From: Ignavibacteriota bacterium
GTDB taxonomy: Bacteria; Bacteroidota; Ignavibacteria; UBA10030; UBA6906
Assembly: GCA_003158475.1 (NCBI GenBank)
Contig: PMJR01000049.1
Coordinates: 14,078 to 47,726 of the forward strand
Reading direction: 5' to 3'
Length of the DNA stretch: 33,649 bases
The position numbers and the translations under genes were made by a program. Position 1 is the first letter of the stretch; each line of letters starts with the position of its first letter. Shown here one piece after another: positions 6,750-29,374 of this stretch. Below the pieces are notes generated by a model that ran no database searches, was not told the DNA's origin, and saw only the letters and a program-made list of their open reading frames with translations.

Positions 6750-6768
6750 CGACAATCGAGGAAGACGC

Positions 6769-7092: not shown

Positions 7093-7124
7093 TACACTAT
7101 TAACCCGAAGACACAGCAGCCCTC

Positions 7125-7841: not shown

Positions 7842-7862
7842 TCAGACAGGAGCCCACACGGC

Positions 7863-8132: not shown

Positions 8133-8181
8133 CGAGGGTCGTTCACATTTTGTTCCAGTCAGTTGCAGAAGAGGTAGCCTC

Positions 8182-8577: not shown

Positions 8578-8593
8578 CCAAGGAGATCAGAAC

Positions 8594-9148
8594 GTGTCAC
8601 GAGTTGGCAGAAAACCGATTCCCATCGCCGCGGGAGTAAAAGTGGCGCAGAGCGGGAGGACGATCACCGTGGCGGGGCCGAAGGGCCAGCTGGCTGCGGA
8701 TGTCCATCCCGATATCAGCGTGGAGATCAAGGAGAACACGATCCTCGTTGCGCGCCCCTCCGACCTGAAACATCACCGGGCGCTGCACGGGCTCTGGCGC
8801 GCGCTCCTGGCCAACATGGTCAGGGGAGTGACCGAAGGCTACACGAGGAAACTCGAGCTCGTGGGGGTCGGCTACCGCGCAGAGCTCAAGGGGAAGAAAC
8901 TCCAGCTTCTGCTCGGGTTCTCCCACCCGATTCTCTTCGCCCCCCCGGAGGGGATCAAGATCGAGACGCCGAGCCAGAACAACATCACGATAAGCGGCAT
9001 CGACCGCGCGTTGGTGGGGCAGGTCGCGGCAAAGATCCGTTCATTCCGGCCGCCGGAGCCCTACAAGGGGAAAGGCGTGAAGTACGAAGGCGAGTACGTC
9101 CGCAGGAAGGCCGGCAAGGCTGCGGCGGCGAGCGGAGCCAAGGTATAA
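8594..9148 (+). CDS. rplF: 50S ribosomal protein L6
   Basis: L6 lies near the GTPase-associated centre. The start is GTG at 8594, with a good AAGGAG at 8580-8585 eight nt upstream and the family opening MSRVGRKPIPI. Both L6 repeats are present, with VGYRAELKGKKLQLLLGFSHP in the middle and the C-terminal signature FRPPEPYKGKGVKYEGE...RRKAGKA. Length is 184 residues, normal. Confidence 0.97.
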   Translation: MSRVGRKPIPIAAGVKVAQSGRTITVAGPKGQLAADVHPDISVEIKENTILVARPSDLKHHRALHGLWRALLANMVRGVTEGYTRKLELVGVGYRAELKGKKLQLLLGFSHPILFAPPEGIKIETPSQNNITISGIDRALVGQVAAKIRSFRPPEPYKGKGVKYEGEYVRRKAGKAAAASGAKV

Positions 9149-9172
9149 TGTCATCGACCGGGAATTGACGCA

Positions 9173-9541
9173 ATGATCACCAAGAAAAAAATCGAGCACC
9201 GGAACCGCCTGAAGGTGCACATCCGTCTCAGGATCACCGGAACTCCGGAGCGCCCGAGGTTGACGGTCTTCCGGAGCCTCAGGAACGTCTATGCGCAGAT
9301 CATCGACGACACGACGGGAAAGACGCTCGTCGCCGTGTCGAACCTGTCGAAGCCGGAACGGGAACAGTTCAAAGAGCTGAAGGGGCAGACCGCGAAGGCG
9401 AAACTGGTCGGCAAGATCGCCGCGCAGAAGGCGGCCGAAAAGAAAATCACGCAGGTCGTGTTCGACAGGAACGGTTACCTGTACCACGGCGTGGTAAAGG
9501 CGATGGCGGATGGCGCGCGCGAGGGTGGCCTGAAGTTCTAA
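9173..9541 (+). CDS. rplR: 50S ribosomal protein L18
   Basis: L18 binds 5S rRNA with L5. The 122-residue product has the RPRLTVFRSLRNVYAQIIDD strand region and the C-terminal VVFDRNGYLYHGVVKAMADGAREGGLKF signature. A basic N terminus (KKKIEHRNRLK) is typical. In most bacteria rpsE follows directly; here a tRNA gene intervenes 45 nt downstream. Confidence 0.96.
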   Translation: MITKKKIEHRNRLKVHIRLRITGTPERPRLTVFRSLRNVYAQIIDDTTGKTLVAVSNLSKPEREQFKELKGQTAKAKLVGKIAAQKAAEKKITQVVFDRNGYLYHGVVKAMADGAREGGLKF

Positions 9542-9586
9542 AGAACCCCCCGCTGAAAATGGGGAGAACCCGGCGCCGCAGGCGTT

Positions 9587-9657
9587 TGTCGGGTCGTCTA
9601 ATGGCAGGACAGCGGCCTTTGGAGCCGTGAGTAGAGGTTCGACTCCTCTCCCGACAG
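9587..9657 (+). tRNA. tRNA-Gln, anticodon TTG
   Basis: All four arms fold. The acceptor stem pairs 9587-9593 (TGTCGGG) with 9650-9656 (CCCGACA), 7 perfect pairs. The D stem is GTC/GAC. The anticodon stem is GCGGC at 9612-9616 with GCCGT at 9624-9628, loop CTTTGGA, anticodon TTG at 9619-9621, reading CAA. The T stem AGAGG/CCTCT (9633-9637, 9645-9649) carries the loop TTCGACT. The unpaired base 9657 is G, the expected glutamine discriminator. The 3' CCA is not encoded. The gene is in the same orientation as, and between, rplR and rpsE, so it is probably cotranscribed and cut out of the ribosomal protein mRNA. Confidence 0.95.
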
Positions 9658-9700
9658 CAGGACACAGCGGGGAGCATTTCATTGAAAGAGAGGGACAACG

Positions 9701-10226
9701 TTGGCACGTATCAAAGCGAGTGAACTGGAGTTGAAAGACAGGCTCGTCCACATCAACCGCGTCGCAAAGGTTGTGAAGGGGGGGCGCCGCTTCAGCTTCA
9801 ACGCCATCGTCGTCGTCGGCGACGGCAGGGGCCATGTCGGTATCGGCCTCGGGAAGGCGAACGAAGTGGCGGACGCTATCTGCCAAAGGCGTGGATGACG
9901 CGAAAAAGAACGTCGTTCTCGTGCCGATCGTGAACGGGACAATCCCGCACCCGGTGATAGGCAAGTTCGGTGCGGGTCGGGTGCTGCTGAAACCTGCCTC
10001 GCCGGGAACGGGCCTTATCGCGGGGGGAGGCGTCCGTGCGGTGCTCGAATCGGCCGGGGTCCGCGACGTGCTGACAAAGTCTATGGGATCTTCCAACCCC
10101 CACAACGTGGTCAAGGCCACGATGGCGGCGTTACTCAGCCTCGTGGATGCGAAATCCGTTGCGTCGCGCCGGGGTATGACTATACACGAACTGTTCGGGG
10201 CCGCCGCGGCTCCGGCATCGAACTAA
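9701..10226 (+). CDS. rpsE: 30S ribosomal protein S5, reading frame broken by one extra nucleotide
   Basis: S5 works in translational fidelity and mRNA unwinding. The first frame (TTG start 9701, AGAGGGA upstream) encodes the N-terminal dsRBD-like half through [16 protein letters not shown], then reads CQRRG and stops at TGA 9896-9898. The rest ([24 protein letters not shown] through [12 protein letters not shown]) continues in the +1 frame to the TAA at 10226. Family homologues read EAIxKGVEDAKK here, so one surplus base in TGCC at 9881-9884 accounts for the break. Without it the protein would be about 174 residues, normal for S5. The gene is essential and otherwise undamaged, so a sequencing or assembly indel is the likeliest cause. 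Confidence 0.93.
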
Positions 10227-10244
10227 GAATCACGGGTCGCCCCT

Positions 10245-10427
10245 ATGGCAAAGAAGCTGAAGATCACGCAGACCAGGAGCATCATAGACCAGATCGAACC
10301 GCAGAAGCGCACAATAAAGGCGCTGGGTCTCGGCCGGCCGAACTACTCGGTGGTCAAGAACGACACGCCGCAGATCCGCGGCATGATACGCAAGGTGATC
10401 CACCTGGTGCGTGTCGAAGAGGTCTGA
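10245..10427 (+). CDS. rpmD: 50S ribosomal protein L30
   Basis: L30 is a small large-subunit protein. The 60-residue product shows [13 protein letters not shown] and the diagnostic [24 protein letters not shown] segment, ending [10 protein letters not shown]. It lies 18 nt after rpsE. Its stop is followed at once by a strong stem-loop before rplO. Confidence 0.96.
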
Positions 10428-10432
10428 CGGTC

Positions 10433-10464
10433 ATTGCGCGCCCTCTTCTTTCGGGGCGCGCAAT
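10433..10464 (+). promoter_or_regulatory. 11-bp perfect stem-loop between rpmD and rplO
   Basis: ATTGCGCGCCC at 10433-10443 pairs perfectly with GGGCGCGCAAT at 10454-10464 around a 10-nt pyrimidine-rich loop. It begins 5 nt after the rpmD stop. CCACAACGAAAAAAG follows, so no T run supports intrinsic termination on the plus strand, and expression must continue to rplO, secY and beyond. An mRNA processing or stability element, or a ribosomal protein binding site, are possible roles; the structure is seen, the role is inferred. Confidence 0.7.
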
Positions 10465-10506
10465 CCACAACGAAAAAAGTATTCTGCCAGCACCAGGAAC
10501 GAAACA

Positions 10507-10995
10507 ATGGCCAAAGACATACTCAGCAACATGAAGCCCGCCCCGGGATCCCGCAAGAAGCGGAAGCGGATCGGACGCGGACAGGGCTCGGGACACGGCG
10601 GGACCTCCACGCGCGGCCACAAGGGTGCCGGTTCGCGCTCCGGGACGCGACACAGGGCATGGTTCGAGGGGGGGCAGATGCCCCTCGTCCGCCGCATTCC
10701 CAAGCGCGGTTTCCACAGCCCTTTCAGGGTGGAGTACCAGGTTGTCAATATCCAGACGCTGCAGAAGCTGGCGACCGACGGAAAAGTGACGGGAGGAGTC
10801 GTGACTCCCGAGCTCCTTGCGAAGCTCGGCGTGGTCAAAGGGTCCGCGATTCCGGTGAAGGTGCTCGGCACGGGCGAGATCACGGCGAAACTCGAGATCG
10901 CGGCGCACGCGTTCAGCAAATCCGCCGTCCGGAAAATCGAGACCGCCGGCGGCAAGGCTCAGACGATAAGCTCAACTCCGAAGACGAATGGCTAA
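10507..10995 (+). CDS. rplO: 50S ribosomal protein L15
   Basis: L15 is a late-assembly large-subunit protein. From ATG 10507 the product is 162 residues: the basic glycine-rich N terminus (KKRKRIGRGQGSGHGGTSTR, then GHKGAGSRSG) and the globular C-terminal part with VVTPELLAKLGVVK and AHAFSKSAVRKIETAGG. An in-frame GTG-like opening at 10411 would add unrelated residues across the stem-loop and was rejected; AGGA at 10495-10498 supports ATG 10507. The end overlaps secY by 8 nt. Confidence 0.95.
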   Translation: MAKDILSNMKPAPGSRKKRKRIGRGQGSGHGGTSTRGHKGAGSRSGTRHRAWFEGGQMPLVRRIPKRGFHSPFRVEYQVVNIQTLQKLATDGKVTGGVVTPELLAKLGVVKGSAIPVKVLGTGEITAKLEIAAHAFSKSAVRKIETAGGKAQTISSTPKTNG

Positions 10996-12313
10996 TATCG
11001 CCGAAAGCATACGCAATGTCCTGAAGATACAGGAGCTCCGCACCCGGCTGATGTTCACTGCGGCGCTTCTGATCGTTGTCCGGATAGGCGCCCACGTGAC
11101 GCTGCCGGGTGTCGACGCGCCCCTCCTGGCGCGGGCGGAGGCCAGCCAGGCCGCCAACACGCTGTTCGGACTGTACGACCTGTTTGTCGGCGGCGCGTTC
11201 AAGAACGCGGCGATCTTTGCGCTCGGGATCATGCCGTACATCAGCTCCTCGATCATTCTCCAGCTTCTCGGGGCGGTTGTGCCGTACTTCCAGAAACTTT
11301 CGAAAGAAGGGGAAGAAGGACGGAAGAAGCTGAACCAGCTCACACGGTACGGCACCGTGGTCGTGGCCGCCCTGCAGGGATGGGGTGTGAGCGTGCGGCT
11401 GACGAGCCTGACGCTGGAAGGGCAGCCGATCGTTCCCTTCGAGATCCAGGGGTTCGCCTTCACGATGAGCACCGTCCTGTTTCTCACCGCCGGGACGATG
11501 TTCATGATGTGGCTCGGTGAACAGATCACGGAGCGGGGGATGGGGAACGGGATTTCGCTCATCATTTTTATCGGCATCATCGCCCGCTTCCCCCACTCGA
11601 TCGTGGACCAGTTCCGCGTGGGTTCGAACCTGATCATCGACGTACTCATCGTTGCGGTGATGGTGCTGATTATCGCCGGGGTGGTTCTGGTGACGCAGGG
11701 GACGCGGCGTATCCCCGTCCAGTACGCCAAGCGGGTCGTCGGCCGGAAAGTCTACGGGGGAGTCACCCAGTACATACCGCTGCGCGTCAACACGGCCGGC
11801 GTCATGCCGATCATATTCGCGCAATCGATCATGTTCATACCGAGCACGATCCTGACCTTCTTCCCCGAGAGCGAGTTCATGCAGACGCTGGCGGGATACT
11901 TTCAGTACACCTCGCTCACCTATTCCTTTTTCTACGCGGTGATGATCGTGTTCTTCACCTATTTCTACACGGCCATCGCGTTTAACCCCAAGGACGTCTC
12001 GGAAAACATGCAGAAGCAGGGGGGGTTCATTCCCGGGATACGCCCGGGCAAGCACACGTCCGACTTCATCGACAATATCCTGACAAAAATAACGTTGCCG
12101 GGGTCGATATTCCTGGCGATCATCGCGATCCTTCCGGCGTTCGTGACGCGGTTCGGCGTCGCCCAGACGTTTGCGCAGTTCTTCGGCGGCACCAGTTTGC
12201 TTATCATGGTCGGCGTTGCACTCGACACGCTCCAGCAGGTGGAGTCGCACCTGCTCATGCGACACTATGACGGGTTCATGAAGTCCGGAAAAATGAAGGG
12301 ACGTCTGCGCTAG
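10988..12313 (+). CDS. secY: Protein translocase subunit SecY
   Basis: SecY is the channel of the Sec translocon in the inner membrane. The 441-residue protein has about ten hydrophobic segments, starting with LMFTAALLIVVRIGAHVTLPG and including the conserved GIMPYISSSIILQLL and RGMGNGISLIIFIGI. The cytoplasmic loop QGTRRIPVQYAKRVVG, important for SecA and ribosome contact, is intact, as is the C-terminal SHLLMRHYDGFMKSGKMKGR. It overlaps rplO by 8 nt, as is common for this pair, and is followed 9 nt later by map. Confidence 0.97.
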   Translation: MANIAESIRNVLKIQELRTRLMFTAALLIVVRIGAHVTLPGVDAPLLARAEASQAANTLFGLYDLFVGGAFKNAAIFALGIMPYISSSIILQLLGAVVPYFQKLSKEGEEGRKKLNQLTRYGTVVVAALQGWGVSVRLTSLTLEGQPIVPFEIQGFAFTMSTVLFLTAGTMFMMWLGEQITERGMGNGISLIIFIGIIARFPHSIVDQFRVGSNLIIDVLIVAVMVLIIAGVVLVTQGTRRIPVQYAKRVVGRKVYGGVTQYIPLRVNTAGVMPIIFAQSIMFIPSTILTFFPESEFMQTLAGYFQYTSLTYSFFYAVMIVFFTYFYTAIAFNPKDVSENMQKQGGFIPGIRPGKHTSDFIDNILTKITLPGSIFLAIIAILPAFVTRFGVAQTFAQFFGGTSLLIMVGVALDTLQQVESHLLMRHYDGFMKSGKMKGRLR

Positions 12314-12322
12314 ACGGCACTC

Positions 12323-13087
12323 ATGGCACATGTGCCTGTCAAAAACTCGCGTGAGATCGGGCTGATGAAGGAGAGCTGCCGCATCGTCGCGGAGGTGCTT
12401 GCCCTGATCGGATCGCGGATCGCCTCCGGCGTGCGGACCCGTGATCTCGATCGGGTGGCCGAGGAGTATATCCGGACCCGGGGCGGAGAGCCGGCCTTCA
12501 AGGGATACGGTCATGACCGGCGCAACCTGTTTCCCGGGACGCTCTGCGTCTCGATCGACGATGAAGTGGTTCACGGTATACCCGGCGGAGGGACGATCGA
12601 GGAGGGGCAGGTGGTCTCGATCGACGTGGGGGTGAAGAAGAACGGCTACTACGGAGACGGGGCGCGGACGTTTCCCGTCGGGAGGGTTTCGGAGGAGAAG
12701 TCGCGGCTCCTGCGCGTGACGGAAGAGGCGCTCCTCCTGGGGATTGCGGAGGCGCGGTCCGGGAATCATCTGCACGACGTGTCCGCAGCGGTCCAGCGCC
12801 ATGTCGAGGCTGCGGGGTTCTCCGTCGTACGGGACCTCGTGGGACACGGGATCGGCAAAAACCTGCACGAGGATCCCGCGATACCGAACTACGGGGAACC
12901 GGGGACAGGGGTGCTGCTGAAAGAAGGGATGGCGCTGGCCATCGAGCCGATGGTGAATGCAGGGACCCACCGGGTCACTGTGGGGGACGACGGGTGGACG
13001 GTCCGCACGGCGGACGGGAAGCCGTCGGCGCATTTCGAACATACGATAGTTGTCACGACGGGAGAAGCGGAAATCCTCACCCGGTAG
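12323..13087 (+). CDS. map: Methionine aminopeptidase, type I
   Basis: This cytosolic metalloenzyme removes the initiator methionine from nascent proteins. The 254-residue pita-bread fold carries all five metal ligands: D101, D112, H175, E208 and E239, plus substrate-contacting H84 in DEVVHGIPG. There is no N-terminal zinc-finger extension, so it is the short type Ia form. The secY-map-infA order without adk resembles Bacteroidota and relatives. ATG 12323 is 9 nt after the secY stop. Confidence 0.96.
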
Positions 13088-17236: not shown

Positions 17237-18817
17237 ATGAAAATACTCATCAGCGATCAGCTCGAACAAAACTGCATCGACATACTCACGCACGAAGGGT
17301 TCACGGTTGACAACCGCCCCGGGCTCCCCCCGGACGATCTCCTGTCGGTTGTCGGCGAATACGACGGGCTGGTCGTCCGGAGCGCGACGAAGGTCACCGC
17401 TGAAGTCATCCTGCGGGCCACGCGCATGAAGGTGATAGGCCGGGCGGGAACCGGTGTCGACAACATCGATATTGATGCGGCGACCCGGAAGGGGATCCTC
17501 GTCATGAACACGCCGGGGGGAAACACCGTCTCGGCCGCCGAACATACCGTCTCGATGCTCCTGTCGCTTGCGCGGAACATCCCTCAGGCGTACATGAGCC
17601 TTCTGCGCGGGGAATGGGAGCGGAAGAAGTTCACGGGGACGGAGGTACTTGAAAAAACAGTGGGAGTGGTCGGACTCGGAAAGATCGGCCGTGAAGTGGC
17701 CTCACGGTGTCTCGGCCTGGGGATGAAGATACTCGGCTACGATCCTGTCCTGGCTCCTGATGCTGCCTCCCGGCTCAACATCGAGCTGGTGGACCTTCCC
17801 GACCTCTTCCGCCGCGCCGACTTCATAACGGTCCACACCCCCCTCACACCCGAGACAAAGGGGCTTCTGAACGACGCCACGCTGGCCCGGTGTAAAAAAG
17901 GGGTCAGGGTCATCAATTGTGCCCGGGGCGGGATCATTGACGAGAAGGCTCTGCTCCGCGCACTGGAATCGGGGCAGGTGGGAGGGGCGGCGCTCGACGT
18001 ATTCGAGAAAGAGCCGCCGAAGGACAACCCCCTTTTCCGCCATCCCCGCGTCATAGCGACCCCTCACCTGGGTGCGTCAACAGAGGAGGCACAGGAGAAA
18101 GTGGCCGTGCAGATCGCTCACGAGCTCGCTGACGCGCTTCACGGACGCGCCTACTCCGGGGTCGTCAACGGAAGTGCCATGCTCCTGACGCTGAAGGAGG
18201 AAGTCCGTCCGTATATCACGCTCGCAGAGAAACTCGGGCACATTGCCGCGCAGCTTGCGACCGGGAAACTGAAGCGCGTCACTGTCTCCGCGTCCGGAGA
18301 CATCGTGACTTCGGCGATCGAGCTGATGAAGGCCGGCGTTCTCAAAGGGGTCCTCTCTCAGAGCCAGCCCGGGCCTGTGAATTTCATCAATGCCCCCTTC
18401 CTCGCGGAGGAACTCGGACTTGCTGTCGGCGAAACGCGCGAACCGGAGGGAGGGAATTATCCCAACCTGCTCAGTGTCCGGTATGTCACCGATAAGGAAG
18501 TGAAAGAGTGTGGCGGCACCGTCTTCGGTTCTTCCTCTGTCCGGCTCGTCACAATCGATGGGTTCCGTTTCGAGGTAAGGCCCGAAGGGGATCTCCTGAT
18601 ATACTCTAATGTGGACCGTCCCGGGATGCTCGCCCGGGTCGGTTCCGTGCTCGCGAAGTACGACGTCAATATCGCCGGCGTCTCGCTCGGACGTTCTGCG
18701 GCCGGCGCTAATGCATTGACTGTCATGAACATCGACAGCCCGATCCCGGAGGCGGCCCTCGCCGAGCTCGTCTCCCTGGACGGTGTTTCGGGGCTCAAAA
18801 CCGTCCATCTTGACTGA
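17237..18817 (+). CDS. serA: D-3-phosphoglycerate dehydrogenase, long ACT-domain form
   Basis: SerA oxidises 3-phosphoglycerate with NAD in the first step of serine synthesis. The 526-residue protein is the long type: catalytic and Rossmann domains with GLGKIG at residues 146-151 and catalytic R230, E259 and H277 (in NCARGG, EKEP and TPHLGAS). An intervening allosteric substrate-binding domain follows (about 320-440). A C-terminal ACT domain begins around residue 450 (SNVDRPGMLARVGSVLAKYD), normally the serine-feedback site. ATG 17237 is 9 nt after engB, so it is probably cotranscribed with it. A weak terminator follows. Confidence 0.96.
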   Translation: MKILISDQLEQNCIDILTHEGFTVDNRPGLPPDDLLSVVGEYDGLVVRSATKVTAEVILRATRMKVIGRAGTGVDNIDIDAATRKGILVMNTPGGNTVSAAEHTVSMLLSLARNIPQAYMSLLRGEWERKKFTGTEVLEKTVGVVGLGKIGREVASRCLGLGMKILGYDPVLAPDAASRLNIELVDLPDLFRRADFITVHTPLTPETKGLLNDATLARCKKGVRVINCARGGIIDEKALLRALESGQVGGAALDVFEKEPPKDNPLFRHPRVIATPHLGASTEEAQEKVAVQIAHELADALHGRAYSGVVNGSAMLLTLKEEVRPYITLAEKLGHIAAQLATGKLKRVTVSASGDIVTSAIELMKAGVLKGVLSQSQPGPVNFINAPFLAEELGLAVGETREPEGGNYPNLLSVRYVTDKEVKECGGTVFGSSSVRLVTIDGFRFEVRPEGDLLIYSNVDRPGMLARVGSVLAKYDVNIAGVSLGRSAAGANALTVMNIDSPIPEAALAELVSLDGVSGLKTVHLD

Positions 18818-18860: not shown

Positions 18861-18889
18861 TTGACAAAGACAACCTCTCTCTCTATATT
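18861..18889 (+). promoter_or_regulatory. Near-consensus sigma70 promoter upstream of the receptor-T9SS operon
   Basis: A perfect -35 TTGACA at 18861-18866 and a -10 TATATT at 18884-18889 (5 of 6) are separated by exactly 17 nt. Transcription would begin near 18896, giving a leader of roughly 400 nt before the receptor gene at 19294. This is the housekeeping-type promoter, not the TAnnTTTG Bacteroidota type. Confidence 0.75.
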
Positions 18890-19167
18890 CATTTCAAATA
18901 GTCCCATCATTCCATCCGTTGTATAAATCAACACCGAAGGAGGTGAAGAAACGGGGTAATTGATACTGCATTCCAAACTTCTTACCTGTTCTATTCTCTG
19001 TGCTGAAGATCACCTTTTTCGTGTGCGGCGCGACACGCGGCGCGGCATGATCTATCCGGTGATCGGAGATCCACACTAGAGAGCGCTCATCCACTTCCAG
19101 TCTCCACGCTGATCTGTCCTGAAATGTCCGGAACGGATGCCTGCAATCTCACATTCAATTCCGCGCG

Positions 19168-19197
19168 CGGATGATGAGCGGTTGATATCCGTTTTTT
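19168..19197 (+). promoter_or_regulatory. Possible attenuator hairpin in the receptor leader
   Basis: CGGAT at 19168-19172 can pair with ATCCG at 19187-19191 across a 14-nt loop, followed directly by six T residues (19192-19197). The 5-bp stem is weak, so this could be a chance match. If real it would give premature termination about 100 nt before the receptor start. Confidence 0.25.
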
Positions 19198-19293
19198 CGG
19201 CTACTTTTTTCTTTTCCGGATTGCAACACAGGGGCTTCACTACCTGGATATACCCGTGGTAAGCAACCCAGCCAACACATAAGGAGGTACAAC

Positions 19294-22275
19294 ATGCAAC
19301 GTAAGCTTTTGTTTCTTCTGTTGATCACGGCTCTTGTTCCGGGCCTGATGTTCGCATCAGGGAAGATCAAGGGCAAAGTGGTCGATGCGAGCTCGGGTGA
19401 GCCGCTCGTGGGAGCAAACGTTGTCGTCGTCGGAACGTCGATGGGCGCCGCAACGAACGTGTCTGGCGAATATACCGTGCTGAACGTCCCCCCCGGTACC
19501 TACGCGCTGAAGACCAGCTACGTTGGCTATCAGGCGATAACGCTTTCCAATGTCAGAGTGAACAACGACCTGACCACCGATGCGAACTTCCAGCTTCCTG
19601 CCGAAGGCGTCACGGTGGGGACGGTGATAATCACGGCGGAACGTCCCATGGTGAACAAGAACGCGACCAGTGCCGTGCGGATCATTGACAACGAGTTCTT
19701 CGAGAAATTACCCGGCCGCGGTGTCGATGCGGCGGTTTCCCTCCAGCCCGGCGTCGTGTACTCGGGGACTAATGCCAACACGGGTCAACCTAACATTTTT
19801 ATCCGCGGCGGGCGTGCGGATGAGACCGGCTACTCGCTCGAAGGCGTCTCGATTTCCAATCCACTGTTCGGTGGTTCCGCGATCACGTTTGCCGCAGAAG
19901 CGATCGAACAGATCCAGGTGTTGGCGGGGAGCTACGGTGCGGAATATGGCTCGGCGAACGCCGGCATCATCAGCAGCCAGCTTCGCACCGGGAACTCCGA
20001 GCGCTGGAAGGTCATGGTGCAGGGTGAGACGGATCGCTTCACCGGCAACGGCAAACAGGCTCTGGGCGGATATTCCTACGGCTACTCGGACTTTACGGGA
20101 ACACTCTCCGGTCCTGTGCTTTCCGATAAGGTTCGCTTCTTTGGAAGCCTCCAGAACACGTTTCTCCGGGATCCCGATGTGCGGCTCTGGACCGGCCTGA
20201 ACTTCCCGACGATAGTGTCGGACCCCACCAAGAACTACTACCATCCCACCACGTCGCAGCCGGACACGCTCAACCTCGCCTATCAGGCGGGAAACAGAAC
20301 GGGCGGGAGGAACAATGTCTGGTCCACGGCGGGGACACTCTTGTTTGATCTCGGTCCACTCCAGATTCGGGCAGGCGGAACCTATTCGGCGCAAAACCTG
20401 CAGGCCACCACCGACATTCTGGATATTTTCAACTCGGCGCGCAATCCGCTGACCCTCAGCAAAAACGGACTGGCGAATGTGAAGCTCTCCTACATCCTCA
20501 GCCCGACGATGTTTGCAGAGGCAAACGTCAATTATTTCAACCGGAGTGACATCATCGAGGATCCTCTTCTGAAGGACGCCTATGACCTTTACGGGGACAC
20601 GACCGCGAATGCGGCGCTCGGATACCACCTCAAGGGGGAGTCGGCGCAATATGACGCATGGTCACTCTACGGGGGTAATCCGTACGGAGTTTCATTGAAC
20701 TTCCCGGGGACGCTCCAGACGGGGTATTCCAAAACCAAACAGTCCTCCATCGGCGGCAGGCTCGACTTCAACGCCCAGCTCGGCAAGAACGCCCTGAAAG
20801 TCGGCGGCGAGTACACGCGGTACACCATTCGCAGATTTGCCCCCGGGACATTTGGTCGCGCCCAGATCATTGCGTCGCATCAGGGAGATCCGGCGACAAT
20901 CGATAAGCTTCTCCGTCTGTTGAACAATGGCGGAGATGTGTACGGCTATGACGTTCACGGAAATGAGATCACCAGCGACTTGACGGTCACGTCGACCGAT
21001 CCGAAGACCGGCTTGCCGGTGACCGATGTGACCGATTTCGGCCCACCGCATCCCGTGTTTGCCGGGGCGTACGTCGAGGACAAGATCGAGTTGTCCGATC
21101 TCATCCTGAACCTTGGTCTGCGGTATGACTACATCAACCCCGACAGCAGGGAACTGAATAATTCGCAATTTGTAACGTTCAACGACTCGTTGAACATTAT
21201 CTCGTCATCAAATTTCAAGAAAACTCCGACCACGAACCAGATCAGCCCGCGCATCGGGTTCTCCTTCCCCGTAAGCGACCGGACCGTGTTCCACGCACAG
21301 TACGGGAAGTACATCCAGCAGTCGCAACTGCGGGATTCGTACCTCGGTATGGGTGGGGCCTCGCAGATTGTCAAGGGGGGCTTCTTTGTGACGAATACCG
21401 TGGGGTTCGGACTCCGTCCGGAACGGACGACGTCCTATGAGATCGGGTTTGCGCAGCAGCTCTCCGATGCGTCCTCGTTTGACGTGACGGCGTTCTACAA
21501 GGATATTCTCGACCAGATTACTTACACGCAGATTCTGCCGTCAGCGGGCGCCCCACAGCAAGCCTATCCCTCGTATGTCAACGGCGACTTTGCGACCACA
21601 AAGGGGATCGAGTTCAAGTTCACGCTCCGCAGGACGAACCGGATTCAAGCGCAGGTGAACTACACGATCTCTGATGCACGGGGTACGGGGTCGAATCCGA
21701 ACTCCGTTGCGGGCGCTGCCGTCACCGCGGGTGCTTCAGGCTCCCCCTTTGTGCCGACGTATATCTTCGCAACCACGTTTAACCAGCCGCAGCGGGGAAA
21801 TGTCCTCCTTGACTACCGCTTCGCCAAGAACGACGGCGGTCCGATACTGGAGCAGGCGGGATTGAACATCCTCTTCACGTTCAATGGCGGAACGTCGTAC
21901 ACCCGGATCGTCGATCTGAACTACACCGGTGATACACGCCAGTACGTTCCGGTGGAGCAAATCGGCTCATCTCTCAGCCCGTGGATATTCGAGATCGATG
22001 CACGGCTCGACAAGACCGTCAGGCTCGGGCCGTTCGATGCGAACTTCTATATCTATGTCATCAACCTGCTGAACACACAGAACGCGGTCACCGTGTTCAA
22101 CACTACGGGCGATCCGAAGGACAACGGATGGCTGTCGTCGCAACTCGGTTCTGTCAAGGCGGCGGCTGCCGGCCAGGGGTACGTCGATCTCTACAACGCG
22201 GCGTACGGTGGGCTGAATTCCGGCAACTTCGGTCCGCCGAGGCAGCTACGGTTTGGCGTGAGACTGGATTATTAA
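19294..22275 (+). CDS. TonB-dependent outer-membrane receptor with carboxypeptidase-regulatory domain
   Basis: This is a predicted 993-residue outer-membrane beta-barrel receptor. A signal peptide (about residues 1-22, KLLFLLLITALVPGLMFA) is followed by a CarboxypepD-regulatory-like domain (about 24-105: GKVVDASSGEPLVGANVVV, GEYTVLNVPPGTY). The plug comes next (about 115-240: VDAAVSLQPGVV, FIRGGRADETGYSLEGVSI, YGAEYGSANAGIIS), then a long barrel ending RQLRFGVRLDY. The terminal aromatic residue fits BAM-mediated insertion. Ligand unknown. A strong AAGGAGG precedes ATG 19294. The next gene, a T9SS cargo, begins 19 nt after its stop, and the two likely share an mRNA. Such receptors in this group often accompany T9SS proteins; whether this one imports a nutrient or has another envelope role cannot be told. 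Confidence 0.9.
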   Translation: MQRKLLFLLLITALVPGLMFASGKIKGKVVDASSGEPLVGANVVVVGTSMGAATNVSGEYTVLNVPPGTYALKTSYVGYQAITLSNVRVNNDLTTDANFQLPAEGVTVGTVIITAERPMVNKNATSAVRIIDNEFFEKLPGRGVDAAVSLQPGVVYSGTNANTGQPNIFIRGGRADETGYSLEGVSISNPLFGGSAITFAAEAIEQIQVLAGSYGAEYGSANAGIISSQLRTGNSERWKVMVQGETDRFTGNGKQALGGYSYGYSDFTGTLSGPVLSDKVRFFGSLQNTFLRDPDVRLWTGLNFPTIVSDPTKNYYHPTTSQPDTLNLAYQAGNRTGGRNNVWSTAGTLLFDLGPLQIRAGGTYSAQNLQATTDILDIFNSARNPLTLSKNGLANVKLSYILSPTMFAEANVNYFNRSDIIEDPLLKDAYDLYGDTTANAALGYHLKGESAQYDAWSLYGGNPYGVSLNFPGTLQTGYSKTKQSSIGGRLDFNAQLGKNALKVGGEYTRYTIRRFAPGTFGRAQIIASHQGDPATIDKLLRLLNNGGDVYGYDVHGNEITSDLTVTSTDPKTGLPVTDVTDFGPPHPVFAGAYVEDKIELSDLILNLGLRYDYINPDSRELNNSQFVTFNDSLNIISSSNFKKTPTTNQISPRIGFSFPVSDRTVFHAQYGKYIQQSQLRDSYLGMGGASQIVKGGFFVTNTVGFGLRPERTTSYEIGFAQQLSDASSFDVTAFYKDILDQITYTQILPSAGAPQQAYPSYVNGDFATTKGIEFKFTLRRTNRIQAQVNYTISDARGTGSNPNSVAGAAVTAGASGSPFVPTYIFATTFNQPQRGNVLLDYRFAKNDGGPILEQAGLNILFTFNGGTSYTRIVDLNYTGDTRQYVPVEQIGSSLSPWIFEIDARLDKTVRLGPFDANFYIYVINLLNTQNAVTVFNTTGDPKDNGWLSSQLGSVKAAAAGQGYVDLYNAAYGGLNSGNFGPPRQLRFGVRLDY

Positions 22276-22294
22276 CCCCAAGGAGGCTCTACCA

Positions 22295-25200
22295 ATGATG
22301 AACAAGAAATTTCTCTATCCGATAACCCTCTGTGTGCTGGTCCTCTTCGCCGGGGTTGCTGTGGCCTTTGGCGGGGAACTTGAAGGCACAAAGGCACGGC
22401 CGAAAGGCCTGGGCAAGGTCGCCGACAACGACGTGTACAGGACCATGCTCATCAACAATATCTTCGACTACTACTCGAACAATGGCGACATGTCGTTCAA
22501 TCCCTTCAGTACGGACGCCGAGGGATTCGAGTTCCCCAAGGGGAGCAATGGGCATGTCATGTTTGAGCAGGGGCTCGTCTGGACGGGATTCAACGCGATC
22601 GTAGACCCCGCAGGCAACCTCCCGCCGGTGACGCTCAAGTGCTCCGGCTCGACATACTATCATGCGTTGCAGGCGGGTCGGATCACTGCTCCGGGAACGT
22701 CGACGACACGACCCACTGCGGCAAACGCAGGGGACGCCGCAAACCGCGTCTACCGTGTGCGGACTGATATCACCCCGCCGGACTGGGCAGGAGGCACGGC
22801 CACCTCGGCAAGTGATGCGCTGGGTTTCATCACAAGCGAAGAATTGCCGCTGATCACGCGATACGAGTCCTACACTGCGCAGCAGATCTATCAGCAGTAC
22901 TTGGATGACTGGAATAACTGGCCTGCAGCGCAGGGCGCCCCCTTCGCGTACGGCAAGGATGCGGCAGGGACCCAGCGGACAAGTGGTGCGTATAATCCGC
23001 ATTTTGACATCCCCGGCCAGCCAGGCGCGGACCAGACACTCTGGTATGTTTCGAACGACCTCGAAATCGGTCGCGTTGTCAACATGTACGGTTCCACTGA
23101 CGGGACCGGCATTGAACAACAGACGACGATCTGGGCGTACAAACGTGCCTCAAATACGGCGCTGGGGAACACGATCTTCAGCGGGTTCAAGCTGATCAAC
23201 AAGAGCGGTGCGCCGATCGACACGATGTACATCTCCTTCTGGGCGGATCCCGACCTCGGCGGCTCGCTGGGTGCTACGGACAACTTCTCCGGATGCGACA
23301 TCGGACGGAGCCTCGGGTTCGTGTGGAACGGCACCGCCTGCAGCCAGGATCCTGCGTACGGATGCTCCCCCCCCGCCGGGGGGCAGGTCTTCTTTCAGGG
23401 TCCCATCGTAGCATCGGCGGGGGATTCCGCAATTTTCGATCTGCAGTACCGCCAGGGCTTCAAGAACCTGAAAATGTCGGCGTACAATTTCTTTATCAAC
23501 AGCAGCACCACATATGCCGACCCCCGGGGCAAAGTTCCCCAGGGGACGCCCGACTGGTACAACCTCATGCAGGGCCTGATCGGCAGGACGGGTGCCCCGT
23601 ATACCGACCCCACAACCGGGAAGACGACCAAGTTCCTCCTCTCCGGTGATCCGGTGACTGGTCAGGGATGGGTTGAGGGGGGGGCGTTCGCCATAGCACC
23701 TCCCGGTGACCGCCGCCAGTGCCTGATTGCAGGCCCTTTTACAATGGGGGCCGGCGACACTCAGCAAGTTGTGTGCGGGACGCTCGCGGGCCGTGGAAGC
23801 GATAAGGTTTCCAGTGTTGCGGTCCTTAAATTCTACACGGATCAAGCCCAGGCGGCCTACAATGTCCTGTTCCAGTTACCGAGTCCGCCCAAGGACCCGA
23901 AAGTCACCTGTACCAATCTGGACGGTGAGATCGTCCTGAATTGGGCTGATGCACCGACGATTGCGGTCACCGAGTCTCAGAACGCGAAAGGCTTCGCGTT
24001 CCAGGGTTACAACGTCTATCAAATGCCGGGGAACTCCTCTGATGGAGCCGTGCGCCTGGCGACCTATGACATCATCGACCTGGTCCTGAAGATCCAGGAC
24101 TACGTGTTCGATCCATCGGTGGGAACCGTGATCCTGAAGCCCGTACAATTCGGCAACGACTCGGGGATACTCCGGTTCTACGACACCAAGACGGATGCAT
24201 TCAGCAAATTCGGGAACCAGCTTGCAAACGGGCAATCCTATTACTTCGCGGTCACGGCTTACAACTACAACCCCGATCACACCGTGACTCCGAACAACCT
24301 GGAGAGCGGCATCAAGCCGGTCCTGGCGGTCCCGCAGAAACCAGTCCCGGGGACACGCATTGGCGCGGCGGTCTTTGATTCGGTCAAGGGCGTCTCGCAG
24401 ACTACCGCTCCGGGCGGCGCTCCGAGCGAGGGTACGGTGACGCCGGTTGTCATCGATCCGAAAGCACTCACCGGTCACAACTATAAAGTCTCTTTCGACA
24501 CCACCGGAGGGAACTTTACCTGGAGATTGACCGATGTGTCGCTCGGCACGGTCCTCTTGAAGAACCAGACCAACTTCGACGGGAGCAGCGTAGACTTCCC
24601 GATCGTGGACGGGCAGCTGATCCGTGTCGCCGGTCCCCCTGCGGGGATGAAGCCGGATGACGTCAATAGCACCCCTGATCAGACAAAGTGGGGCTGGAGC
24701 ATCCCCTCAGGGACACGCAGGTGGACCTGGAGCGGGGCGAATAGCTCCGGCTACGCCCTGGAAGGATTCGGTCCCGCCGAGGGTGTTTCAGGGGCCATGG
24801 GGAGCGCACCAAACTTCTGGGGAGGCACACTCGGGGCGTCCGATTTGCACAACGTCCTGCTTGTTCTTGCAGCGACCGACACCGCCGGGAATCTTGCCAA
24901 CGCGGCAGACACCACCGCTTCGTATGCATACCGGTTCATGAGAGCCTGCCAGAGTGCACCAGCCGATCCGTCGTTCGCGCCGTTCATCATCCACGGCGGA
25001 GCGACAGCAACGAGCTACGACTTCCAGGACTATACCAAAGGAGTCCCGCTTGCGGCCTATGACGTCGATGTCAAGCCACCCAAACGGCTTGCATTGATGT
25101 TCCTGGAAAACAACGTCGCGGGCGCACTTGTTGACGGAAAATACTGGCCGCCGCTGGCGGGAATTGGAAACAGCGCGACCACGAGCCCGCGGGAGTGGCT

Positions 25201-25762
25201 GTTCATAACGAGCGCGCCCTATACGGGTGCGGCAGGCGACCCGACACTGGAGACAAATCTCAACACCGGGTCGGGGGCCATGCCCCTGATGTGGCTCATT
25301 CTTGCGGATCGGAGGGCAAATGTCGGCTGGGCGAAAGGCGATGAATTTGAGATCTTCGCCAATCACGTATTCACGGTCAATAACAGCTATGCGTGGGCTG
25401 CCCCGGCGACGGTGACAGGCAATCTGGCCGCCGCAAGAAACGACGTGACAAAAATCAACGTGTTCCCGAATCCGTATTTTGGATTCAATCCTGCGGAATC
25501 GAACAAGTACCAGCGCTTCGTGACGTTTACGCATCTGCCGTCAAAGGCAACGATCCGGATATTCAATGTCGCCGGCATACTGGTGCGGGTCATCACGAAG
25601 AATGATGACACGCAGTTCACGACGTGGGACCTCAATAACTCGTCCGGTATCCCCGCCGCCGCTGGTATGTACGTTGCATACATCGACATGCCTGATCTCG
25701 GAGTGACAAAGACGATTAAGCTTGGCATTGTTCCCCAAGCGCAGTTCCTGGATCGGTATTGA
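22295..25762 (+). CDS. Large exported protein with fibronectin-like region and T9SS C-terminal sorting domain
   Basis: This 1155-residue protein has a signal peptide (KKFLYPITLCVLVLFAGVAVA) and a long N-terminal region of unknown fold with many Asn, Tyr and Trp residues. About residues 530-660 look like a fibronectin type III module (EIVLNWADAP, GYNVYQ, GQSYYFAVTAYNY). The last 100 residues are a type IX sorting domain: INVFPNPYFG near residue 1055, then FTHLPSKATIRIFNVAG, LNNSSGIPAAAGMYVAYID and a final basic strand (TKTIKLGIV). It should cross the inner membrane via Sec and the outer membrane via T9SS, and be released or anchored. Start ATG 22295 has AAGGAGG upstream. No enzymatic motif was recognised; a surface or adhesion role is a guess. 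Confidence 0.88.
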   Translation: MMNKKFLYPITLCVLVLFAGVAVAFGGELEGTKARPKGLGKVADNDVYRTMLINNIFDYYSNNGDMSFNPFSTDAEGFEFPKGSNGHVMFEQGLVWTGFNAIVDPAGNLPPVTLKCSGSTYYHALQAGRITAPGTSTTRPTAANAGDAANRVYRVRTDITPPDWAGGTATSASDALGFITSEELPLITRYESYTAQQIYQQYLDDWNNWPAAQGAPFAYGKDAAGTQRTSGAYNPHFDIPGQPGADQTLWYVSNDLEIGRVVNMYGSTDGTGIEQQTTIWAYKRASNTALGNTIFSGFKLINKSGAPIDTMYISFWADPDLGGSLGATDNFSGCDIGRSLGFVWNGTACSQDPAYGCSPPAGGQVFFQGPIVASAGDSAIFDLQYRQGFKNLKMSAYNFFINSSTTYADPRGKVPQGTPDWYNLMQGLIGRTGAPYTDPTTGKTTKFLLSGDPVTGQGWVEGGAFAIAPPGDRRQCLIAGPFTMGAGDTQQVVCGTLAGRGSDKVSSVAVLKFYTDQAQAAYNVLFQLPSPPKDPKVTCTNLDGEIVLNWADAPTIAVTESQNAKGFAFQGYNVYQMPGNSSDGAVRLATYDIIDLVLKIQDYVFDPSVGTVILKPVQFGNDSGILRFYDTKTDAFSKFGNQLANGQSYYFAVTAYNYNPDHTVTPNNLESGIKPVLAVPQKPVPGTRIGAAVFDSVKGVSQTTAPGGAPSEGTVTPVVIDPKALTGHNYKVSFDTTGGNFTWRLTDVSLGTVLLKNQTNFDGSSVDFPIVDGQLIRVAGPPAGMKPDDVNSTPDQTKWGWSIPSGTRRWTWSGANSSGYALEGFGPAEGVSGAMGSAPNFWGGTLGASDLHNVLLVLAATDTAGNLANAADTTASYAYRFMRACQSAPADPSFAPFIIHGGATATSYDFQDYTKGVPLAAYDVDVKPPKRLALMFLENNVAGALVDGKYWPPLAGIGNSATTSPREWLFITSAPYTGAAGDPTLETNLNTGSGAMPLMWLILADRRANVGWAKGDEFEIFANHVFTVNNSYAWAAPATVTGNLAAARNDVTKINVFPNPYFGFNPAESNKYQRFVTFTHLPSKATIRIFNVAGILVRVITKNDDTQFTTWDLNNSSGIPAAAGMYVAYIDMPDLGVTKTIKLGIVPQAQFLDRY

Positions 25763-25769
25763 GCAGGGA

Positions 25770-25800
25770 GCCCTGCGCCGCGTCTGCCGCGGCACAGGGC
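25770..25800 (+). promoter_or_regulatory. Stable intercistronic stem-loop between T9SS cargo and PorV-like gene
   Basis: GCCCTG at 25770-25775 pairs with CAGGGC at 25795-25800, and GCCGCG at 25777-25782 pairs with CGCGGC at 25788-25793, with one C-A mismatch and a 5-nt loop. It begins 7 nt after the cargo stop codon. No T run follows, so it looks more like an mRNA processing or stability element than a terminator. Confidence 0.6.
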
Positions 25801-25851
25801 GCCCGTATCCGAGTGTGTTCTGGTGAGTTGTTCAACCAAAGGAGAGAGTCC

Positions 25852-26901
25852 ATGGAAACCAATATGAAGCGGTCAATGGTATGCCTGGTTTTCCTCATCG
25901 GCATCCTTTCAGTGACTGCTCTTGCCGGCAATAAGTCGCGGACGGGAACCGCAGGAGCAGGCGAGCTCTTGATTCCCGTCGGGGCACGCGGGGTGGCGAT
26001 GGAAGGCGCTGACCTGTCGTTCCTGAGCGGGGTCGAAGCGATCTACTATAATCCTGCGGGGCTGGGACGTATCGAACACGGAGTCGAGGCGCAGGTCTCC
26101 CATATGAACTACTTTGCCGATATCGGCGTCGATTACGGCGGCATTGGGGTGCAAGCCGGGGATTTCGGCGTGCTGGGCTTTACGATCAAATCCCTTTCTT
26201 TTGGGGATATCCCCGTTACGACCAATCAGTTCCCGGACGGGACCGGGCAGGTGTACAGCCCGACATACCTGACGATGGGCCTGACGTATGCGAAGCTCCT
26301 GACGGACCGGATTTCGGTCGGTGCGACCGCGAATTTGGTCTCAGAGAAAATCATGAGCACATCTGCCAGCGGCTTGGCGTTCAACGTCGGCGTTCAGTAC
26401 AGCAACCTGGCAACGCCGGGCTTGAATCTGGCGGTCGTCGTGAAGAACGTCGGTCCGCAGATGCAGTTCGACGGCTCGAACCTCCTGTACGCGTCCACCG
26501 CGGCAGCAGGCGGTCAGGCAGGCCAGTTACTCTCGACTCCCACGGCAGGCTTCGAGCTCCCCTCCTCGATCGAGATCGGGGTGGGATATCAGAAGAAGTT
26601 CGATGATAAGAACAGCGCTCTCCTCGGCGGCACGTTCCGGAACAACAATGCCTCCGACGATGAGTACTCCCTGGCAGGCGAGTACAATTATGACAATACC
26701 TTCTTCGTCCGGGGTGGGTACATCTTCGCGCCGCAGGTGGACAAAGATCCGACCGGTGCGAGGGAGTATCTGTACGACTTTTCAGTCGGTGCGGGCGTAG
26801 GGTATCCGGTGGGGGGCATCGATCTGAGGTTTGATTACGGGTATCGTCATATGAAGTTTTTCGGTGGCAACAATGTCATGACCCTGCGGCTGGGTTTCTG
26901 A
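25852..26901 (+). CDS. PorV/PorQ-family outer-membrane beta-barrel protein
   Basis: From ATG 25852 the protein is 349 residues with a signal peptide (MKRSMVCLVFLIGILSVTALA). The mature start GTAGAGELLIPVGARGVAM and the YYNPAGLGR motif are the signature of the PorV/PorQ (FadL-like) family. The rest alternates in short amphipathic strands and ends FGGNNVMTLRLGF with a terminal Phe, as for outer-membrane barrels. PorV is the T9SS shuttle that binds cargo C-terminal signals. This copy sits 89 nt after such a cargo gene, so a dedicated partner role is plausible but inferred. AAAGGAGAG at 25838-25846 fixes the start; an upstream in-frame opening at 25759 lacks a signal peptide at its N terminus. 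Confidence 0.88.
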   Translation: METNMKRSMVCLVFLIGILSVTALAGNKSRTGTAGAGELLIPVGARGVAMEGADLSFLSGVEAIYYNPAGLGRIEHGVEAQVSHMNYFADIGVDYGGIGVQAGDFGVLGFTIKSLSFGDIPVTTNQFPDGTGQVYSPTYLTMGLTYAKLLTDRISVGATANLVSEKIMSTSASGLAFNVGVQYSNLATPGLNLAVVVKNVGPQMQFDGSNLLYASTAAAGGQAGQLLSTPTAGFELPSSIEIGVGYQKKFDDKNSALLGGTFRNNNASDDEYSLAGEYNYDNTFFVRGGYIFAPQVDKDPTGAREYLYDFSVGAGVGYPVGGIDLRFDYGYRHMKFFGGNNVMTLRLGF

Positions 26902-26933
26902 ACCGGCGCAGCGTTTTTTTGTCCCAAGACGGC

Positions 26934-26969
26934 AGGAGGGCTGGCATGTGCATGCCAGCCCTCCTTTTT
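26934..26969 (+). terminator. Strong rho-independent terminator after the PorV-like gene
   Basis: A perfect 14-bp stem (26934-26947 with 26952-26965) with a GTGC loop is followed by a run of five T residues ending at 26969. It lies 32 nt after the PorV-like stop codon and closes the receptor-cargo-PorV unit. Confidence 0.9.
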
Positions 26970-27001: not shown

Positions 27002-29374
27002 ATGACATGTTTCTTCCTCCCGCCGCGGCGTTCCGCCGTCGCGCTTTTCAGTCTCCTTCTGCTTTCGTTCTGCCTGGGACGTACGCAGGGGCGTTCGTAT
27101 TTTCCGGAGCAGGGTTCCGGGGCCCTCCAGCAGCGGGCGCTCGAAGCCCGGCACCCGTGGGTGGCAATGATGGTCAGCCTCGAGCCCGGGATGGAGGATT
27201 TTCCCGGGATTGCCTGGCTGCGCCTGGCCACAGGCGCGAGCGTCATCAACCTCTACGCAACCAACGGTGAGGGGACGCCGAGCGACTACAGCGGCGAGAC
27301 GCCGGGCGACGTCGCCGGGCGCAGGAAGATGGAGGCGGTGCGCAGCACACTGATCCTGGATGGGGAGGCGTATTTTCTGGATCTGCGCGACCCCGGCTTT
27401 CTCAAGGACCGGAAGGCGTTGGAAGAGGCATGGATTCCGGATTCCGCGGTTTCGCGAATGGTCGCGGCCATCCGAACGAACAGGCCGGATGTGATCATCC
27501 TGGCGCGGGATCAGCGGGCCGATAGCGCGGTGAGCCTCCGGCAGACCGTTTTGCAGGGCCTCCTTCAACGGGCAATCCGGGAGGCGCGCTCCGCGGGACA
27601 ACACCATGGCCCCCTGAGCCCGTTGGCCGACCGCGCATGGAGCGTCAAGCGGCTCTTCGTGGACCTGGGACGGCCGAAGCAACCGACGGCGGCCGCTGTG
27701 GGGAGGCGCCATCCTGTGTGGAACAAATCGTACGCGGCAATCGGCCTTGAGGCCGCGGCGCCGTATGCCTCTCTTTCTGGGCACATTGCGTCGTACTGGC
27801 GCAGCGGTAACGGGCGGAGCTACACGCCGATTTCACTCGACGCCGGCGCGCAGAGGAGTTCGTTCGAAGGCGGACTTCTCCTCTTCGATGAACACCTCCG
27901 GGCGGTCGAGAGGGGCGTTGCGTCCGTGGTTTCCCTGGTGGGTCAGGGGAAGGAGACCGAAGCGCTGAAACCGCTTCTGGATGTACTCGAGAAGGTGGAC
28001 TACACGGTCACCCGGGAATTTGCAACTCTGACAGACATCGACCGCCGGGCGATCACGCTGTGGAAGAACAGGCTGGAGAACCTCCGCTGCACGCTCTTGA
28101 ACGTGAATGTCACGTTCGAGATGAGCGACAGTCTGCTCACCGAACGGCAGCTCTTCTTCCTCCGATTCAAAAAGTTCAGTGCGGATCTCGTCGGCGGCCA
28201 AACGCAAATCCTCTTCCCCGGCATCGGCCAGGGGGACTGGATCGTGACGGAGGGGAAGGCCAATTCCCAGGTCTTCCCGTTTGCCGCCCCGAAGGAATTC
28301 CAGATGCTGACCCCCCAGAAAATGCGATACACGCGGCCGGTAATCCAGTATGGGCTTGCCCTTCCCGTCATCACCGAGAACCTCTCGTTTATCATATTTC
28401 ACAGGGATACGGTACGCGAAAGAAGTTTTGTGTATCGGAAGGAGGTTCCGCTGGGGATCGGCCCGCGGGGGACAGCGGAGCTCCTCACGCCGGTTGTGCG
28501 ATTGACCCCCGGGGAACGCGTCGTCTACGGCGTGTGGAACTTCATGCGCGATCCCCTGAAAGGGGAGGCCTCTGTCCAGGATTCACTGGCGTCCGGCGGA
28601 CCTCAATCCTTTTTCGTCCGCCAGAAGGATGAGGTGGACACGGATACGCTCACGCTTGACTGGAAAAGAGAAGTCCCCAGCGGGGACTATGTGATGGACT
28701 TCCGGGTGTGGGACAGGCCGCGCGCCCGGCAGCTTATTGCACGGAAGTTCGACGCGGCAGCCGATACCGCTCACCGTGTCGGACTCATCACCGCGCTGCA
28801 GGGAAGTCCTGTCGCGGAAGCCCTCAGACGGCTTCATGTCCCCACAGTCGCCCTGGATTCCGGAGCAGTTCATGCCCTGGGCCTTGGCGAGCTGGGCACG
28901 ATCATCATCGACCGGGATGCTCTCGCGCTGCGGCACGATTGCTCTTCGTGGATCCCGGCGATCGGTTCCTGGGTCAGGTCGGGGGGGCATCTGATTGTCC
29001 TCCCCCAGTATGAAGCAGCGGGACAGGGTGAGGCCTTTGCCGAAGGAATTTCATTTGCGGGCCGGCCGCACATGGAAAGCACGGAACCGGTCGAGACCGA
29101 CCCCTCGAGCCCGATGCTCACGATCCCGAACCGGATCAGCGCGGTTGATTGGCAAGGGTGGGTGGTGTCGCGCGCGATGGGGTCCGTTCAAATCAAGAAC
29201 GGAACAGGACTTCACGTTGCGGTCCGTTCCCCTGGCACGGGCGCCGCGCTCCTGGTGAATGCACCGCAAGGGAAGGGGAACGTGACGTTCGTTGCCCTCG
29301 ATCTCTGGTCGCAGCTTCTGAACGTCCACCCGGGGTCCTACCGCCTGCTTGCGAACCTTGTGAATCCGCTGTAG
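27002..29374 (+). CDS. Exported PIG-L/LmbE-like protein with degenerate zinc site (predicted pseudoenzyme)
   Basis: The 790-residue product from ATG 27002 has an N-terminal signal peptide (SAVALFSLLLLSFCLG). About residues 38-300 follow the layout of the long PIG-L family deacetylases: GIAWLRLATGASVINLYATNGEG, then GRRKMEAVRSTLILDGEAYFL, RDPGF and RPDVIIL. Where active members have AHPDDE this protein has SLEPGME (residues 59-65). The downstream region that normally carries the third zinc-binding histidine (residues 170-180) has none. The metal site therefore seems lost. From about residue 590 (VGLITALQGSPVAEALRRL) a class I amidotransferase-like domain follows, as in other long PIG-L proteins. 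The earlier ATG 26948 lies inside the preceding terminator and gives no signal peptide at its very start. No clear ribosome binding site is visible. Confidence 0.8.
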   Translation: MTCFFLPPRRSAVALFSLLLLSFCLGRTQGRSYFPEQGSGALQQRALEARHPWVAMMVSLEPGMEDFPGIAWLRLATGASVINLYATNGEGTPSDYSGETPGDVAGRRKMEAVRSTLILDGEAYFLDLRDPGFLKDRKALEEAWIPDSAVSRMVAAIRTNRPDVIILARDQRADSAVSLRQTVLQGLLQRAIREARSAGQHHGPLSPLADRAWSVKRLFVDLGRPKQPTAAAVGRRHPVWNKSYAAIGLEAAAPYASLSGHIASYWRSGNGRSYTPISLDAGAQRSSFEGGLLLFDEHLRAVERGVASVVSLVGQGKETEALKPLLDVLEKVDYTVTREFATLTDIDRRAITLWKNRLENLRCTLLNVNVTFEMSDSLLTERQLFFLRFKKFSADLVGGQTQILFPGIGQGDWIVTEGKANSQVFPFAAPKEFQMLTPQKMRYTRPVIQYGLALPVITENLSFIIFHRDTVRERSFVYRKEVPLGIGPRGTAELLTPVVRLTPGERVVYGVWNFMRDPLKGEASVQDSLASGGPQSFFVRQKDEVDTDTLTLDWKREVPSGDYVMDFRVWDRPRARQLIARKFDAAADTAHRVGLITALQGSPVAEALRRLHVPTVALDSGAVHALGLGELGTIIIDRDALALRHDCSSWIPAIGSWVRSGGHLIVLPQYEAAGQGEAFAEGISFAGRPHMESTEPVETDPSSPMLTIPNRISAVDWQGWVVSRAMGSVQIKNGTGLHVAVRSPGTGAALLVNAPQGKGNVTFVALDLWSQLLNVHPGSYRLLANLVNPL

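Follow-up and report, generated by a model that had tools for sequence, protein, structure and literature searches.

The closest described systems each share some features with the locus analysed here. In the attachment complex of Porphyromonas gingivalis, the secreted proteins PorU and PorZ retain their own C-terminal tails, which are of the type IX secretion system (T9SS) kind, and are seated on the barrels PorV and PorQ (PMC5562754, PMC10202324). Cognate PorV-like barrels have been suggested, in a review, to guard tails against cleavage (PMC10202324). Type A cargos of the T9SS pass via PorV and type B cargos via an adjacent PorP/SprF protein; in the type B arrangement of Flavobacterium johnsoniae, the cargo gene adjoins the gene for the FadL-like barrel that serves it, and orphan cargos occur as well (PMC12618676, PMC9143113). 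The SusC-SusD and RagA-RagB systems, which take up glycans and peptides, place a receptor with CarboxypepD_reg and plug domains beside a surface-exposed partner. Our search of the open-access literature in PMC found no description of PorV paralogues that adjoin TonB receptors.

Architecture of a receptor-cargo-barrel cassette

We analysed a 33,649-nucleotide stretch of DNA from an Ignavibacteriota bacterium (hereafter ‘the window’). An earlier note, made from the letters alone, had placed a TonB-dependent receptor (TBDR), a T9SS cargo and a PorV-family barrel in one promoter-to-terminator cassette, and all three genes were found at that place on the plus strand. The features are as follows.

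18861-18889, plus strand: sigma-70-type promoter TTGACA-17-TATATT, consensus score 11/12
18890-19293, plus strand: 5ʹ leader of about 400 nucleotides, holding a perfect anti-SD complement
19294-22275, plus strand: TBDR of 993 amino acids with a CarboxypepD_reg-like N-terminal domain, plug and barrel
22295-25762, plus strand: T9SS cargo of 1155 amino acids with a Sec signal peptide-like N-terminus
22415-23875, plus strand: cargo residues 41-527, predicted beta-supersandwich with insertions (compare GH94/GH116/dextran dextrinase), from AlphaFold2 and VIA
23705-24649, plus strand: cargo middle region, residues about 471-785, common to most other module cargos (profile match positions)
25421-25759, plus strand: PorZ-like T9SS C-terminal domain with a C-terminal extension of about 10 residues (...QFLDRY), from profile models and alignment
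25852-26901, plus strand: PorV/PorQ-family outer membrane barrel of 349 amino acids, from NCBIfam profile and predicted structure
26934-26969, plus strand: intrinsic terminator, 14-bp stem and T tail, from folding energy and recurrence in relatives
27002-29374, plus strand: associated fourth gene past the terminator, with a signal peptide, a PIG-L-like domain with an altered motif and a weak DUF4350 match

The barrel gene is taken to start at the ATG at 25852, since the TTG at 25759 in the mechanical ORF list overlaps into the cargo gene. Likewise, the GTG at 26948 chosen for the fourth gene by the ORF finder falls within the terminator.

We consider that this cassette probably encodes a three-part outer membrane capture-and-uptake unit, SusCD-like in arrangement and built from other parts. 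The modules look like the PorU/PorZ-type placement of a tail on a barrel, multiplied and joined to TonB receptors. As in the P. gingivalis pairs, a secreted protein would keep its T9SS tail and be bound by a PorV/PorQ-family barrel. However, PorZ-PorQ and PorU-PorV are single pairs that belong to the secretion machine itself, whereas here a genome has many paralogous pairs, every one accompanied by a TonB receptor of its own, and the cargo head varies. Similarly, the juxtaposition of cargo and barrel genes, and the existence of orphan cargos, recall the type B system of F. johnsoniae, but the barrel here is of the PorV/PorQ family rather than PorP/SprF, and the tail is type A/PorZ-like rather than type B. 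The receptor domains and the catabolic genes around sister modules parallel SusC-SusD and RagA-RagB, although the partner in the present case is a T9SS cargo with a predicted supersandwich head and no SusD match in Pfam, accompanied by a dedicated anchor barrel.

Recurrence of the triad in several phyla

Cargo homologues were identified in all 21 genomes of the family, often several per genome. The order TBDR, cargo, barrel recurs around them, and each genome carries several copies. A scan of named genomes yielded 79 loci in Ignavibacteria, Melioribacteraceae, Kryptonia, KSB1, Gemmatimonadota, Handelsmanbacteria, Latescibacterota, Delongbacteria, Marinimicrobia and Calditrichota, including one (L148) in the cultured strain Stygiobacter electus. 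Conservation of the three-gene order, which had been proposed as a check, proved to be strong: of the 75 cargo homologues that end in the special tail described below, 61 lie between a TBDR and a barrel. The receptor gene is directly 5ʹ of the cargo gene in most cargo homologues; for several cargos with the special tail, neither a TBDR nor a barrel gene adjoins. By these genome statistics, the triad is ancient and is spread over several phyla.

At one locus (L065 in genome G020, 6701-12786), the barrel gene is intact and the receptor and cargo genes are split among several frames, which may reflect either decay or assembly errors.

A PorZ-like tail and its downstream barrel

The cargo is a borderline match to the T9SS type A model TIGR04183 (cut-off 23), with 22.8 bits as a whole protein and 26.1 bits for the tail alone. 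Against the PorZ equivalog it scores 36.9 bits, in the tail region only and below the full-model cut-off of 260. The PorZ model is matched by 24/24 special tails of the window’s cargo family and by four of five sister-family tails, but by none of five standard tails. For the window’s cargo and most of the sister families tested, the module tail fits the PorZ model more closely than it does the type A model. The consensus of module tails is ‘...NVFPNPYYG..RFVTF.HLP..A.IRIFNLAG...WDL.N..G.PV.SG.YI.HI.MP..G.TK.LKLA.VQEQQ.LDRY’, which runs about 10 residues past the usual last strand. In most, the stretch that begins with PNP and closes the protein measures 97-102 residues, compared with 83-90 in homologues with standard tails; processed T9SS tails are shorter than the unprocessed tails of PorU and PorZ (PMC11285876). 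By profile and length, the tail of the cargo appears to differ from standard type A signals and resembles the uncleaved PorZ tail. We infer from this likeness that the tail is kept rather than cut by PorU.

In three genomes, a PorV-family gene lies directly downstream on the same strand of 22 of 24 special tails, defined as those scoring at least 50 bits (a line set after seeing the list), and of 0 of 150 standard type A tails (Fisher 6e-26). When the window’s own cargo family is left out, the count in these genomes is 18 of 18, although the sister cargos are not fully independent cases because they share the middle region, as well as the tail, with the window’s cargo. The pairing fades among tails that score 30-50 bits, although in two of these cases (L180, L184) a receptor gene and a barrel gene follow a short way downstream, at a distance of a few genes. 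A comparable pattern holds across natural tail swaps: the barrel gene is present in 0 of 5 full-length homologues with a standard tail and in 65 of the 73 special-tail cases that have a downstream ORF, leaving eight without an adjacent barrel. These comparisons bear out the proposal that the barrel belongs with the cargo next to it.

The natural tail swaps are at L054, L064, L067, L117 and L146, where cargo homologues end in a standard type A tail and have neither receptor nor barrel alongside.

The barrel protein scores 146.8 bits against the NCBIfam PorV_fam model (NF033709, cut-off 90), which is also matched by all 24 aligned module barrels. Its scores against the PorV, PorQ and PorV2 equivalogs (57.9, 66.8 and 72.9 bits) are under the respective cut-offs of 250, 220 and 325, and it is therefore a family member outside those three equivalogs. 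An AlphaFold2 model predicts a FadL-type barrel fold as in translocon-bound PorV, with best PDB matches to 8gl6_F and 6h3i_F (PorV in translocon structures) at TM 0.70; the profile match to 6h3i_F is 6e-23. PorP/SprF (PF11751) has no match in the genome, and so no type B pairing of cargo and PorP/SprF was found there.

Cargo head, genomic company and a proposed uptake mechanism

Searches of Pfam and PDB with the cargo sequence returned no named function, and a whole-cargo Foldseek search gave only weak partial matches, including PorZ 5m11, that were over-stretched (TM 0.09-0.14), leaving domain-level comparison as the informative route. The AlphaFold2 model of the cargo (pLDDT 80, pTM 0.63) provided such a comparison. 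Residues 41-527 align with the GH94/GH116 supersandwich over 256 residues (VIA Z 19.2, rmsd 3.3), whereas the usual background is Z 7-8, at 9% identity to GH94/GH116/GH15-type domains. Thus the cargo body, previously described as without recognised function, has a recognisable predicted fold in its N-terminal half, namely the beta-supersandwich of GH94/GH116-type sugar enzymes, although the fold alone is not proof of sugar binding. Unlike in those enzymes, no catalytic (alpha/alpha)6 domain follows it in the predicted model.

Sister modules in the same genomes are also receptor-cargo-barrel triads. Among their neighbours are genes for GH94 phosphorylases, a sugar-binding protein and ABC permease, regulators of the LacI or RpiR/SIS type, peptidases of families S51 and M14, or a CBM9 protein. 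The window’s own module has no sugar-catabolic neighbours. The company of the sister modules, again a matter of genome statistics, is the strongest pointer to substrate-specific uptake, and import is therefore favoured as the role of the receptor. Sister triads beside GH94, sugar ABC transporter, LacI, RpiR/SIS, S51 and M14 genes occur at L159, L160, L070, L164, L168, L162 and L161, which may represent an undescribed type of utilisation locus.

We infer docking without cleavage, ligand binding and import along the following lines. The cargo would first leave through Sec and next through SprA, the T9SS translocon, the latter step being suggested by co-occurrence. Its PorZ-type C-terminal domain would escape the PorU sortase and dock on the co-encoded PorV-family barrel, which would collect the cargo from SprA and retain it at the cell surface, much as PorZ is held by PorQ. 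There, the exposed N-terminal supersandwich could capture a ligand, probably a glycan or oligosaccharide, and the neighbouring TonB-dependent receptor would import it.

A more far-reaching proposal is that these modules constitute an undescribed tripartite outer membrane uptake system across several FCB phyla, in which co-encoded PorV paralogues read a distinct PorZ-like, sortase-resistant class of T9SS tails, and each TonB receptor has its own T9SS-exported binding protein in place of SusD. We hold this tentatively, at a little under an even chance. If true, it would explain why a genome carries many PorV-family genes (18 matches here), and the cognate-shuttle rule, so far one for type B cargos, would come to cover the PorZ-like class too. 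It would also offer a concrete test for the published idea that cognate PorV-like barrels shield tails from cleavage (PMC10202324), and would reveal a SusD alternative in little-cultured phyla that are important in sediments and soils.

Alternatively, the cargo might be a structural or adhesive surface protein, serving in a surface layer or in binding to a solid substrate, with the barrel as its anchor and the receptor importing something unrelated from the same niche. The cargo is indeed a large protein of several domains whose middle region is conserved, and adhesins are commonly displayed by the T9SS (PMC12618676). However, strict adjacency of receptor and cargo across several phyla fits uptake better, as do the regulators and oligomer-degrading enzymes beside sister modules, and the cargo head has a predicted sugar-enzyme fold. 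We therefore regard this arrangement as unlikely.

Receptor, secretion background and co-variation

The receptor has both a plug domain and a barrel, matching the Pfam families CarbopepD_reg_2 (7e-20), Plug (1.2e-12) and the barrel domain PF25183 (8.5e-13). Its score against the SusC/RagA model TIGR04056, 78.8 bits, is far under the 368-bit cut-off. PF25183 is the Oar-like barrel family.

The T9SS background was evaluated for the co-occurrence that the earlier note had named as a check, that of the triad with porK/L/M/N and sov/sprA. The answer was mixed. The window’s genome (G000) encodes a SprA translocon (SprA_N, 191.8 bits) and, in a search of this genome alone, a PorU sortase (T9SS_sortase, 892.5 bits); SprA is also present in G003 and G015. 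The triad occurs only with SprA, which was found in 72 of 72 carriers compared with 190 of 247 genomes of the phylum overall (p=1e-10). For the motor, GldM gave no match with TIGR03517 in the window’s own genome or with PF12081 in G000, G003 and G015, and GldN (PF19841) was likewise not detected in those three genomes, although two more distant members of the phylum did yield a GldN match. This lineage may have a divergent or a different T9SS motor.

Co-variation of the parts was evaluated by a mirror-tree comparison. Within genomes, tail distances correlate with barrel distances (r=0.65, p=2e-4), but receptor and barrel distances correlate more (r 0.84). Given the receptor, the partial tail-barrel correlation is 0.22 (p 0.05) and that of barrel with receptor 0.72; distances from so short a tail are noisy, and this test is not decisive for specific contact between tail and barrel. 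Receptor, cargo and barrel diverge as one block, in which physical pairing is not separated from co-inheritance.

These data bear on the original suggestion, that the cassette is a dedicated export and surface-assembly module: the barrel would escort the neighbouring cargo, and the receptor would supply energy, taken here as energy for export, or a binding surface. An Oar-like TBDR of Myxococcus reportedly supplies energy for the export of PopC. The PF25183 match of the receptor barrel, the failure to detect the usual motor proteins GldM and GldN, and the tightest co-variation being that of barrel with receptor are all compatible with such a role here. However, about 106 standard T9SS tails are encoded in the genome, and their cargos presumably use the same translocon with no sign of needing a TBDR; as noted above, a PorV barrel gene directly follows none of the 150 standard tails listed over three genomes. 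Moreover, several special-tail cargos lack an adjoining TBDR or barrel, and sister triads embedded in catabolic loci point to import. We consider the export module highly improbable, and the capture-and-uptake unit remains our preferred reading. A further reading, in which the barrel is just a duplicated PorV used by every cargo and its adjacency to the tail is operon inheritance only, would suit the weak partial correlation of tail and barrel but is very doubtful given the downstream barrel at 22 of 24 special and 0 of 150 standard tails and its absence from homologues with a swapped-in standard tail.

Expression signals and the fourth gene

A promoter scan of the window found three promoter-like sites against 3.7 expected in shuffled sequences, and so the promoter is not above chance by consensus alone and was accepted only through conservation. 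The same hexamers with a spacing of 17 lie 273-481 nucleotides 5ʹ of the TBDR gene at 10/10 tested loci of the window’s type, and at none of the other triad types tested. The terminator hairpin (-30.3 kcal/mol, z -5.0) escaped a consensus scan, one T being taken up into its stem, and similar hairpins occur 3ʹ of the barrel gene in most relatives of the window’s type. The gaps between genes are short, with medians of 28 bp between receptor and cargo (n=90) and 23 bp between cargo and barrel (n=88), and therefore the TBDR, cargo and barrel genes likely form one predicted operon. The promoter-to-terminator cassette thus stands, with both signals recurring in relatives.

The leader contains AAGGAGGTGA at 18937-18946, which is exactly complementary to the 3ʹ end of 16S rRNA and lies about 350 nucleotides before the receptor start, and similar elements come after the promoter in L072, L098 and L118. 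A structured RNA in the leader (18890-19293) was considered and set aside: it has no Rfam match, and two stretches tried gave no stable fold.

Between the cargo and barrel genes lies a GC-rich hairpin without a T run (25768-25805, z -2.9), which could set the relative expression of cargo and barrel. Upstream of the receptor, a serA-like phosphoglycerate dehydrogenase gene (17237-18817) occupies the same place in L032, L041, L046 and L065.

The fourth gene (27002-29374) often accompanies the triad. A working PIG-L deacetylase was rejected as its product, as the HPDDE motif is changed to xxPGxED in all relatives checked; it is possibly a secreted PIG-L-like pseudoenzyme.
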